Of a stretch of DNA of 64,000 nucleotides, positions 22,308 through 62,235 are shown in pieces. The notes beneath the pieces were generated by a model that saw nothing but the letters and a program-made list of their open reading frames with translations, made no database searches and had not been told where the DNA came from. A program made the translations under genes and the position numbers. This DNA is from Cryoendolithus antarcticus (taxonomy: Eukaryota; Ascomycota; Dothideomycetes; Cladosporiales; Cladosporiaceae). Location of the stretch: positions 682,001 to 746,000 of the forward strand of contig NAJO01000010.1 of NCBI GenBank assembly GCA_002077065.1, written 5' to 3'. The number at the start of each line of letters is the position of its first letter. Within the stretch, counting starts at the first letter, position 1.

Positions 22308-23210
22308 AGGTGTGTACGCGCATGCCAGCGAAGGCGTAGATAATTTGGTGTCGCCATCTCCCTGTTATTCCTTCGTTCGTGGCGATGGAGGTCGACGGAA
22401 GCAGCACCATTGTGTAGATGTGATGATAGGAAGACAAAGGGAAGTCAGACATGGTAGAGGTGGCAAGTCAATGCTTGACACGACTGAGAGAGAACAAAGG
22501 AGATCGAGCTAGCACATGCAAATCTAGGACCAACTCGTTGCATAGCATACGATGAGGCCAACAGCCTCAGACTCACTGTCAGGATCATGGTGCAAACGTT
22601 TGTGCCGTTAAGGATGGATGTACAAGTGAGACAGATAGTGGTCCAGCATGCGGGAACAGCGTTTGGTCAGCGCAGTAATCTGTGTGGTTTATGTATTAGA
22701 AATCTGATGCCAAGCCTCAAGCTGTGATGGCTCAATGGGCGGAATTTCCTCTCGCCTCCACCTTCCCTTCACAATCCCAAGGGCGTGTGTCCAGTTCGAA
22801 CTTTGTGGTGGCCGTCCACTCGCTTCGGTAACGAGCGATTGCTGCGCACGGCCTTAAGCTGCTGCAACAAACTTCAGCCGAGCAATCGGGCAGAGAGTTG
22901 CAGGCCATGGAGTGGCGGTGTTGGGTTACACACGTCTTTGGCGGGAACGGATGGGGGCGGTTGATGGGGTGTGTGACGCTTTTTGCCATATCATTGCTAT
23001 GCACGTACATTGTTTTGCCTAGTCTAGGATGGGGTTGGGCATATTGCAACTCGGGCGTGGATCATTGCGTCTGGACATACGAGAGTGCATCTATGGAGAC
23101 GGTGCTGGCCTTGAAGACATGGATTCTGCTGACGATGATTCTGCTTTCCTGTAGTCAAGCGTACTCGACAATCACCTATGTACACCCTCGCTTCAATGCC
23201 ACATCGCTCA
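22308..23210. other. Intergenic region, about 0.9 kb
   Basis: It contains the promoter of the upstream minus-strand gene and the 3' flank of the carrier gene. A hydrophobic plus-strand open frame at 22898-23269 overlaps the carrier 3' end and has no family resemblance, so I do not call it. Confidence 0.4.
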
Positions 23211-59230: not shown

Positions 59231-59950
59231 GGCAACGTGGAGGATGAGGCGTGGAGCAGAGGATTGGAGATCTATCATTTCTGGCGTTCACGGCATGGGC
59301 TGAAGCATGGCGCCAAGGTGCCTTTTGTATAGATACTCGAATGTAAAGATGCGCCATCTCAAGCTGATTGTACGCCGGCTTTGCTCTCTACCCATCAGCG
59401 CATGCGCCCATCGAGTATGGCGGTGCCTCTTGTCGTGGAACAAGGGCCCATAGCGATGTCCTTACTGCAAGCTTGCCCTCCAGTCTACGCACTGCTCTTC
59501 AATGTCTCCATGGATCTAGCTGCCTCTCTCTGATGTTCTTCGATAGCTCGTGATCGTGGCGAAAGGCGTCGAGCTGCAGTGATGTTCGCTCGTGCCTGCC
59601 TGGCCGTCGTTGCAGGCGTCGCTTCGTCGATCCTGCATATGGTCATCAATGAGCCACGCTCTGCCTCCATTGCCAGCAGCAATCAAAGTCTGAAACAATG
59701 CTGCGCCCGTGGAGAAGTCGATGGCTATTCTGTAGTGCTCACTGTCAGCCGGCGAGCAGCTTCGAGACTGCAATGCAGTGTAACAACCATACCGAGAACG
59801 TGATAGGCCAGCATGCCGCCGTCGTACTCGTACTCGTATGCCCGCCGCCACTACCACCTCAGCTTCTTCTTCTTCTCCAAGCCCCTGCGCCGAAGCACAG
59901 CAGCACTGATGAAAAAGTGTATTTGCGTCACAAGGCGGTAGTGTAAGGCC
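59231..59950. other. Convergent intergenic region between VMA16 and U2 snRNA
   Basis: No coding gene is supported. A short CTT repeat lies near 59862-59878. A long minus-strand open frame here runs into the U2 gene and is rejected. Confidence 0.4.
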
Positions 59951-60161
59951 AAGGACACGGTGCGAGGATACTGTGAGCAAGCTCAGGGAGCACCTCGCAT
60001 TTGCGAAAAATAAGGATAATCGTAAATCGACCGTAGTCGAGTTTCAGCGATTAAACTGAACTGTGATGGTTGTCAGTACGTGGCTTAGATCAGGTGTACC
60101 ATCGGAGACTCACAAGAACAGATACTACACTTGATCTAAGCCAAAAGGCAAAGCTGTGAAT
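59951..60161 (-). ncRNA. U2 spliceosomal snRNA, interrupted by a 53-base intron
   Basis: The minus strand reads GCCTTTTGGCTTAGATCAAG then TGTAGTATCTGTTCTT, the invariant 5' part of U2 with stem I and the branch-site-recognition sequence GTAGTA (60128-60123). The conserved sequence then breaks at 60113 and resumes at 60060 with TTCAGTTTAATCGCTGAAA. The 53 bases between have a GTGAGT donor, a TACTGAC branch site and a CACAG acceptor. Joining the flanks gives an exact stem-loop IIa (TTTCAG/CTGAAA). Stem IIb (TCGAC/GTCGA), an Sm site ATTTTTCG (60011-60004) and a 3' stem-loop GCGAGG/CCTCGC follow. The 5' end is set by analogy with other fungal U2 RNAs and the 3' end is approximate. Threonine synthase diverges about 290 bases away. 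Confidence 0.92.
60061..60113 (-). other. Spliceosomal-type intron inside the U2 snRNA gene
   Basis: This 53-base insert has a consensus donor (GTGAGT), a branch site (TACTGAC, 12 bases before the acceptor) and an acceptor (CACAG). The size and signals match the mRNA introns around it. It sits between the first and second base of the 5' strand of stem IIa. Confidence 0.88.
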
Positions 60162-60450
60162 GGTATTAGTGATTGTTCTGAAGGGTATGGGGGGATTGGG
60201 CTTAACGTGCAGAGCTGTTTCGGTGGAGCAGGTTGGATAATTGGGATTGCAAGTGTACTCTGCGGAGGAGGCCCATGCGCTGCTGACAAAGGATTCAGTG
60301 TTCAGGCTGTCAGACATCTGCAGCTGCCGATCTCGGCACGTGTCAATGGGAAAAGTTGTGGAGTGAAGCTGGGAAGACTCACATGCCATTCGGATAAAAT
60401 ACCAAAAGATAAAATCCAAACAGAACGCTTCGTTCAAGTACGTTGCAAGC
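60162..60450. promoter_or_regulatory. Divergent promoter between U2 snRNA and THR4
   Basis: About 290 bases separate the U2 5' end from the THR4 start codon. No clear TATA box or proximal snRNA element is recognisable by eye. Confidence 0.4.
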
Positions 60451-62235
60451 ATGCCCTCCCACTCGCCCTCCCAGCGCTACCTCAGCACTCGTGGCGGCTC
60501 CTACGACGTGAGTCTCTCTATCCCACTTTAACATCAACCTCAGAAGCTCACGCTGAAACCCCAGGCTTCCAGCTTTCTTTCGAAACGGTAGTGCTCAAAG
60601 GTCTAGCCCCAGATGGCGGCTTGTTTATCCCCGAAGAGATTCCCTCGCTACCCTCCGACTGGCAGTCGAAATGGTCGTCCTACTCTTTCCAAGAGCTTGC
60701 ATTCGAGATCTTCAGCCTGTACATCTCGCCTGAAGAGATTCCGGCACAGGACTTGAAGGAGATTGTGCGAAAGAGCTACTCTACGTTTCGTGACGAGAAT
60801 ATCACGCCTCTGGTCACGCTCGACGAGAGCAAGAAGCTCCACCTGCTTGAGCTCTTCCATGGACCGACCTTCGCTTTCAAAGACGTTGCACTGCAATTCT
60901 TAGGGAATCTGTTCGAGTATTTCCTCGTGCGGCGGAATCAAGGCAGGGAAGGCGTCAAAGAGCGGGAGCACCTCACAGTAATAGGCGCGACGAGTGGAGA
61001 CACAGGGTCGGCTGCTATCTATGGCTTGAGGGGGAAGAAGGATGTCAGTGTGTTCATCATGCATCCGAAGGGGAAAGTCAGTCCGGTGCAGGAGGCGCAG
61101 ATGACGACTGTGCTGGATGCAAATGTGCATAATCTGGCGGTGGAGGGGACGTTTGATGATTGTCAGGTAGGTCGTAAGCTGAAGAAGGGCGATAGAAGAG
61201 AAGACTGACAACGCGCAGGACATCGTGAAAGCACTGTTCGCGGACCCGGAGATCAACAAGACGCATAAGCTGGCAGCGGTGAACAGTATCAACTGGGCAC
61301 GCATATTGGCGCAGATCACGTACTACTTCCACGCCTACTTCTCCCTGGTCCGACAGACTGGCAACTCAAAGCCTGCAATTCGGTTCGTAGTACCCACCGG
61401 CAACTTCGGGGACATCTTGGCAGGTTACTTCGCAACACGCATGGGTTTGCCTGCGGACAAGCTTGTGATCGCGACCAATGAGAATGACATCCTGCATCGC
61501 TTTTGGAAGACAGGCCACTACGAGAAGCAGCCTGTCCATGGTCGGGAAGCGGAAGGCGGGTTTGAAGAGGATGGTGTCAAAGCACATGAAGCAGGAGTCA
61601 AGGAGACTCTCGCCCCAGCGATGGACATCCTCGTCTCCTCAAACTTCGAGCGCCTACTTTGGTTCCTCGCCTACCAGACCAGCAGCAGCGAGGAGACGAA
61701 TCACCGACGAATGCAAGCCGGCGAGCAGGTCAAGAACTGGCTAGCTGAGCTCAAATCCTCAGGCGGCTTTGGCGTCAAGCCCGAGATCCTCGAGGCAGCG
61801 AAGAAGAACTTCCTTTCCGAGCGCGTGAGCGACAAGCAGACGATAGATGCTATCACGGAGATGTACACTTCGCCTCTTCCCGAAAGCTCCTCAGTCGTCA
61901 AGACCCAGCAAGCCACTGCCGGCACACACATCTCTGGCCACTACATCCTCGATCCACACACAGCGATTGGTATTGCTGCATCATTGCGGTCGATCTCTGC
62001 CGCACCAGAGGTACAGCACATCAGCTTGGCTACGGCGCATCCAGCGAAGTTCAGCAACGCTGTTGAGCTGGCCTTGAAAGATGAAGAGGGATTTGCGTTC
62101 GATGCCGTGCTACCTGAGGAATTCATAGGACTCGATAAGCTGGAGCGAAGGGTCGTGGGTTGTGGAAAGGAGTGGGAGGAGGTCAGGGAGATCGTGGTGA
62201 ACGAGGTGGAGAAGGAGTTGGGTTTAAGTGACTGA
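60451..62235 (+). CDS. THR4: Threonine synthase
   Basis: This PLP enzyme makes threonine from O-phosphohomoserine. Three exons (60451-60507, 60573-61166, 61219-62235) give 555 residues. The N-terminal motif RYLSTRGGSYD|LSFETVVLKGLAPDGGLFIPEE is created by intron 1. The PLP-binding Lys lies in GPTFAFKDVALQFLGN (about residue 125). Phosphate-binding and substrate segments are GATSGDTGSAAIYG, NSINWARILAQITYYFHAY and VPTGNFGDILAGY. There is no organelle signal. The chosen ATG is the first in frame with the conserved N-terminus. Confidence 0.95.

Follow-up and report, generated by a model that had tools for sequence, protein, structure and literature searches.

A U2 snRNA gene lies at 60218-59922 (-) of the window, the whole stretch of 64,000 nucleotides analysed here, short first exon included. 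It is very probably a working gene, one of at least ten in a duplicated Rachicladosporium-like genome, with a transcript from which the major spliceosome would remove two introns. This reading draws on what can be taken directly from sequence: the identity of the gene, the boundaries of its downstream intron (pC), the constraint on its exons, the existence of paralogs that have or lack each intron, and introns elsewhere in other snRNA genes. The features of the locus are as follows, in the order of transcription.

60271-60280 (-): weak upstream-element-like sequence GCGCATGGGC, 51 nt before the first exon (compare TAGCGCCTTGGCT)
60211-60218 (-): first exon of U2, ACAGCTCT, with a presumed, unmapped 5' end; its junction with 60153 reads ACAGCTCTCTTTGCC, a sequence shared with copies C106 and C64
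60154-60210 (-): predicted intron p0, 57 nt, GC-AG, GCACGT ... CACTAAT ... CACAG; a homologous intron is present in homeolog C60
60114-60153 (-): second exon, with stem I, the U2/U6-pairing region and the GUAGUA branch-pairing sequence, from the Rfam alignment
60126-60143 (-): exon arm TGGCTTAGATCAAGTGTA, able to pair with intron pC at 17 of 18 positions
60061-60113 (-): intron pC, 53 nt, GTGAGT ... TACTGAC ... CACAG; missing from all nine other U2 matches
60081-60098 (-): intron arm TACACCTGATCTAAGCCA, an inverted copy of the exon arm, from complementarity and folding
60072-60078 (-): predicted pC branch site TACTGAC, 12 nt from its A to the intron end
59922-60060 (-): third exon, with stems IIa, IIb, III and IV; mature 3' end approximate
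60043-60060 (-): stem-loop IIa, TTCAGTTTAATCGCTGAA, restored once pC is removed; three of its pairs are changed on both sides in C13 and C46
60004-60011 (-): Sm-site-like AUUUUUCG, from the Rfam and paralog alignments
59871-59915 (-): 3' element TTTTCATCA-N-GGAGAAGA, an exact pattern match and, by eye, a possible hairpin

Infernal matched the whole U2 model (RF00004, positions 1-192) to 60160-59917 (-), insert included, at 100.8 bits (E 2.5e-20; gathering score 46), which places the locus in the U2 family. When the intron is removed in silico, the GUAGUA branch-pairing sequence, stem IIa, the Sm-like site and stem IV are all present, as expected of an RF00004 member. The window also holds a fungal SRP RNA at 22719-22984 (+) (RF01502, 111.3 bits) and, divergent from U2, a gene at 60452-62235 (+) that appears to resemble threonine synthase and whose first coding intron, by eye, seemingly starts with GTGAGT as well. 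A search of the 46.97 Mb genome (149 contigs) with RF00004, in which 46 of 336 candidates were scored, gave at least ten matches above the cut-off. Each copy is named here by its contig, the window copy being C2, and comparison of flanks sorts them into five homeologous pairs. Loci paired at mostly 70-88% DNA identity indicate a duplicated or hybrid genome. A single window protein, Lon, is 98% identical to that of Rachicladosporium sp. CCFEE 5018, which like R. antarcticum is a psychrophilic, endolithic fungus (PMC11412873).

The 5' domain of U2, read on the minus strand, halts after ...GTATCTGTTCTT (60114) and restarts at TTCAGTTTAATCGCTGAA (60060-60043). The insert measures exactly 53 nt and allows a single parse, as neither end slides by one base. 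All nine other U2 matches are unbroken at this site: TTCTT runs into TTCAG in six copies (C60, C66, C64, C76, C86 and C106), GTCTT into TTCAG in the degenerate C73, and TTCTT into CCAAG in C13 and C46. Because the paralogs are unbroken there, insertion at this site can be taken as proven. Exact excision restores the paralog sequence, and in the RF00004 alignment stem IIa, which has to accommodate the insert, contains non-standard pairs. Both pC and p0 have the hallmarks of major (U2-type) introns, namely a GT or GC donor, CTRAY 10-13 nt before a YAG end and a length usual in fungi, and donor, branch site and acceptor of pC came together in 0 of 20,000 shuffles of the insert. Minor (U12-type) introns carry an RTATCCTTT donor and a TCCTTAAC branch site; the donors in the window are GTGAGT and GCACGT, and a search for U12 snRNA gave no match in this genome, nor in any control genome, which makes the lack of a match here uninformative. 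The proposal of the initial annotation, a U2 gene interrupted by 53 nt bearing GTGAGT, TACTGAC and CACAG, with stem IIa regenerated by excision and an Sm site downstream, is thereby borne out by the Infernal match, the paralogs and the shuffles. The sequence evidence supports the presence, in a filamentous ascomycete, of an mRNA-type intron within a U2 gene that is under constraint. In collections of viral and genome contigs, nothing identifiable as the U2 of a related fungus was found. Five U2-like matches in four stretches of MAG contigs show by eye no insert at the pC site, one of them ending with its contig and another leaving U2 soon after the site, and the single viral-contig match shares, by eye, little past a 20-mer.

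The locus had been described as a U2 gene with one intron; pC stands, but a second intron, p0, is predicted just upstream. The 57-nt stretch 60210-60154 ends in CACTAATACCATTCACAG and is preceded by ACAGCTCT and followed by CTTTGCC, and its removal gives ACAGCTCTCTTTGCC, which C106 and C64 also have. A homologous intron sits at this site in the homeolog C60 (core z 4.9). The p0 donors, GCACGT and GCTAGT, are weak and the first exon has just about 8 nt, and p0 is a less certain prediction than pC. The upstream sequences bear on the position of the 5' end. The genome holds nine copies of a 13-mer, TAGCGCCTTGGCT, against zero for the reversed control. Eight of these lie 51-59 nt before presumed 5' ends of U1 or U2, at the ninth (C148) Rfam gave nothing even when E values of up to 1 were allowed, and the exact 13-mer is missing from the other 14 of 22 genes examined. 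In the U1 gene on C73 the exact element lies 53 nt before a short first exon and 117 nt before the second exon, and because of the former spacing the short exon can be argued to be the true start. C60 has a similar sequence (score 10.9), placed 52 nt ahead of ACAGCTCT and 118 nt ahead of CTTTGCC. In the window copy the element is weak, scoring 7.0 against 22.6 for an exact one, and a stretch within the U2 exon itself scores as high.

Downstream, the pattern TTTTCATCA-N15-40-GGAGAAGA has 29 exact matches in the genome, the window gene included, against zero for the reversed control. The same 3' element accompanies several candidate RNA genes for which Rfam gave nothing at E values of 0.05 or below. 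Three of them, L036 and L043 (C1:868983, C62:1060656) and L048 (C70:55942), show by eye both AATTTTTG-like Sm sites and TATA-like boxes. Two more, L042 and L049 (C57, C71), show by eye TGATGATG or TGATGAGG ... GTCTGATC, motifs from which we presume that they may be U3 or another box C/D RNA.

Introns of the mRNA type interrupt eight of the ten U2 genes found, at four positions overall. Position A, after GGCTTAG, is occupied in C86, C106, C64 and C76. Position B, within the branch-pairing sequence, is occupied by GC-AG introns in C60 and C66 (after GTGTAG) and C73 (after GTGTA). Intron p0 is common to C2 and C60, so that these homeologs are p0 plus pC and p0 plus pB, respectively. C13 and C46 have no intron in U2. 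When the genome was searched for the GGCTTAG...TTCTT block in uninterrupted form, three mismatches being allowed, C2, C13 and C46 alone matched, and C13 and C46 are the sole copies seen to read unbroken from the whole 5' domain into stem IIa. The further statement that U2 would be required to mature its own precursor is unsupported as made: since C13 and C46 are uninterrupted, another U2 could do it, and U2 need not be strictly self-dependent. Of the condition that had been named as pointing to a divergent U2 or a pseudogene, an intact intronless U2 elsewhere with the window copy silent, only one half holds: intronless copies do exist, but there is no indication of silence of the window copy.

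The uninterrupted pair could itself be the main U2, the intron-bearing genes being minor or conditional, a reading with a real but minor chance of being right. In its favor, besides their unbroken state, C13 and C46 keep the 5' domain, retain stem IIa through paired changes, and are 94.8% identical to one another over the mature region, compared with 82-87% in the flanks. Against it, they share only 70.6-73.0% identity with the canonical copies in local alignments and score 92.1 (C46) and 81.9 bits with RF00004, compared with 100.8-112.7 for the five best copies, though C60 (86.9) and C66 (84.4), whose scores are low because introns break the match, also fall below C46. The upstream element was not found at either locus (best score 3.0), and the seven intact intron-bearing copies are identical over mature columns 7-66. 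In both homeologs an intron-bearing U1 is found some 5 kb away from the variant U2 (C13:243309-248857, L027/L016; C46:815169-820862, L028/L013).

That the window copy is instead a decaying pseudogene with an insertion, the cell using other U2 genes, is improbable. Ten copies do provide redundancy, C73 is visibly degenerate (65.5 bits, with altered stem I and UAUCUGUUC region) and the upstream element of C2 is weak. However, C2 reaches its full-length score even with the insert in place, its 3' element is intact, and its first 66 mature nucleotides are those of C60 and of the four position-A copies. All canonical U2 genes found carry an intron, so that equating intron with pseudogene would spare only the divergent C13 and C46. 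The first 66 mature nucleotides are identical in four of the five homeolog pairs (the exception, C66/C73, matches at 59 of 65), while in the flanks identity over aligned letters is 77-88% for the five pairs, gap columns numbering up to 362, and 84-85% for C2 and C60. After splicing, the letters of the second exon are the same in C60, C66, C64, C76, C86 and C106, and also in C13 and C46 save for the stem-I loop; C73 differs. Helices are maintained as well: double changes that keep a pair fill nine cells against 3.2 in shuffled alignments (0 of 500 shuffles), three such pairs lying in stem IIa of C13/C46, and 92.2% of helix cells are paired against 89.9% (1 of 500). Other measures are weak, with five pairs showing a double change against 2.9 (49 of 500) and further pair types at 161 of 500. 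Stem III is imperfect in some copies (80% of cells paired), and some stem IIb pairs of C13/C46 score as broken because they are misaligned in the U2 alignment, A1. Exon identity could also stem partly from gene conversion rather than selection.

The window gene itself may hold traces of conversion. C2 and C60 differ in eight columns of A1 over the mature region. At columns 97, 98, 110, 152 and 172, C2 has the letter of all four position-A copies, and at 111, 112, 152 and 172, C60 has that of both C66 and C73, columns 111-112 distinguishing C2. The flanks and p0 of C2 match C60. A simple reading of these few sites is that the body of C2 was overwritten from a position-A-type copy, which would have removed intron B, and that pC was gained afterwards.

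The window gene had been presented as a single odd U2 gene. Its intron pC is real, yet the picture was incomplete, as 18 introns are predicted over U1, U2, U4 and U6. For U1, U4, U5 and U6 only the best candidates were scored, and copy numbers are lower bounds. Of at least 12 U1 matches, three (C13, C46 and C73) have their intron after ATACTTAC or ATACTTACC, within what we take to be the sequence recognising 5' splice sites; seven are unbroken there, and the divergent C90 and C124 align only from model position 12. Both U4 copies found are interrupted, at differing sites in the two homeologs, with an additional 105-nt intron near the 5' end of C106. Both U6 copies found (C62, C1) have one intron, and neither of the two U5 matches, weak and just over the cut-off, is interrupted. 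As both U4 and both U6 copies found are interrupted, self-dependence may be stricter for these RNAs. Both U6 introns (L018 on C62, L019 on C1) start with GTGAGTTCGAACCCC, which contains a sequence similar to an RNA polymerase III B box. The U6 intron of S. pombe doubles as a promoter, and by analogy the U6 intron here may do so too.

The predicted introns are rather uniform, 17 of the 18 being 51-58 nt long. Donor, CTRAY branch site and YAG end are all present in 15 of 18, and the end lies 10-13 nt after the branch A in 16. The three shortfalls are C106 with CTCAT, U6 on C1 with TTGAC and C64 ending in GAG; CTCAT and TTGAC are among the branch motifs given for Fusarium (PMC5677156). GC donors account for seven of 18, an excess over the roughly 1% GC-AG of Fusarium core genes (PMC5677156) that is judged against those genes and U3 introns only and in which homeologous introns are non-independent. 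Coding introns of the window were set aside as a baseline for this rarity, as the open-frame script kept 31 of 71 non-overlapping candidates, a noisy set with six of 31 GC. Among 153 pairwise comparisons of intron cores, the top similarity across positions was that of U2_C2_p0 and U6_C1 (z 3.4, 0 of 200 shuffles). The 5' introns of U1 resemble the p0 introns of U2, both being C-rich with CTAAC or CTAAT plus CACAG, and a common origin is not claimed for them, as core z among the pairs listed is only 1.9-2.5. Homology of pC to the position-B intron of C60 was likewise rejected: the pair is outside the best 22 of 153, with 33 of 43 letters alike and 25 gap columns. The U1 intron of C73 is missing from its homeolog C117, and the C73 gene and intron resemble those of the non-homeologous C46 (93% over 213 nt; 84% over a 67-nt intron query), a sign of gene conversion that would have carried the intron. 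It is highly improbable that an introner-like mobile family invaded the snRNA genes too, since, although such elements are reported in Dothideomycetes (PMC4457414) and introns at several positions suggest repeated gain, the many near-identical copies expected of a family were absent for the two of 18 introns searched genome-wide, pC finding only itself and its own exon arm and the U1 intron only U1 on C46 and C73, and similarity across positions went no higher than the z given above.

Within pC, TACACCTGATCTAAGCCA is an inverted copy, at 17 of 18 positions, of the exon sequence TGGCTTAGATCAAGTGTA. Of 17 introns tested (the 105-nt U4 intron lay outside the test), pC alone topped all 300 of its own shuffles in ungapped complementarity, and self-complementarity was rejected as a general feature of these introns; its duplex energy was reached by four of 300 shuffles. 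The predicted fold of the unspliced window RNA (279 nt) holds the arm helix, with z -4.5 and a mean probability of 0.997 for the inner 11 pairs. Of the three precursors folded, the other two have no such fold (C60 position B, z -0.05; C86 position A, z -0.43). The U2/U6-pairing region lies within the predicted helix, as does part of the branch-pairing sequence. The donor GU is left in the apical loop, the bases after it fall in a short stem, also predicted, and just beyond the long helix comes the branch site. This masking helix may have a function or may be a relic of the intron's origin, and it might slow splicing rather than help it.

For the working, twice-interrupted gene, the following course of events is the most likely. 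The primary transcript would carry two introns: p0 would begin 6-8 nucleotides into the RNA, counted from the presumed 5' end, and pC would stand immediately ahead of stem IIa. In the unspliced RNA the pC arm would pair with U2 nucleotides needed for pairing with U6 and the branch site, and such RNA would be doubly inactive, lacking stem IIa and having its 5' domain masked. The major (U2-dependent) spliceosome would splice the transcript twice, using existing U2 from any copy, including the uninterrupted C13 and C46, which eases the paradox of a U2 needed for its own maturation. We infer that the gene is transcribed from the proposed 5' end and spliced, and that the product is then processed and assembled into an ordinary U2 snRNP. 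A broader proposal would make this lineage's snRNA genes a hot spot of new introns, inserted by reverse splicing and then spread or erased by conversion, with pC a recent gain from an inverted U2 copy that locks unspliced U2 in a hairpin until it is spliced and so ties U2 output to splicing capacity; this is speculative and rather unlikely to hold as a whole.

Several of these features have counterparts in other fungi. Rhodotorula hasegawae is a basidiomycete yeast in which the U1 and U5 genes carry introns, so that there, too, more than one snRNA is interrupted in one species; here U4 is interrupted as well and the two U5 matches are unbroken. Its U2 gene has an mRNA-type intron (Takahashi et al. 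1993, as cited in PMC2586383) and is thus, like the gene described here, a fungal U2 gene with a spliceosomal intron. The present case differs in being an ascomycete, in the eight of ten U2 genes interrupted at four positions, in homeologs that differ and in the inverted exon copy inside an intron. U6 introns, such as that of S. pombe (PMC10581693), are established in fungi (PMC5832005), and U6 is likewise interrupted here, in both copies found. According to the same source, frequent interruption of a small structured RNA is known for U3 and U6 only. The fungal U3 introns it describes (Canzler et al. 2017, PMC5832005) are likewise spliceosomal and lie close to the start of a small RNA that is capped, with paralogs with and without them, Dothideomycetes included, as here. 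In contrast, U3 is not part of the spliceosome, and U3 introns are GT-AG in 136 of 138 cases (PMC5832005), whereas seven of 18 here are GC-AG. Among the matches listed in the literature on snRNA introns, a set with subscription papers mostly outside it, there is no report of an intron in an ascomycete U1, U2 or U4, which agrees with the earlier remark that none was known in the U2 of a filamentous ascomycete.

Taken together, introns in the catalytic RNAs of the spliceosome would make the machine depend on itself. It is an old idea that snRNA introns arise by reverse splicing inside the spliceosome, and the introns of this genome bear on it. Homeologous U2 pairs, and likewise U1 and U4 pairs, that differ in their introns amount to natural experiments, and the cycle could be set going by the uninterrupted U2 pair. 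Within a few hundred bases, the gain and loss of introns can be read here, and conversion as well.
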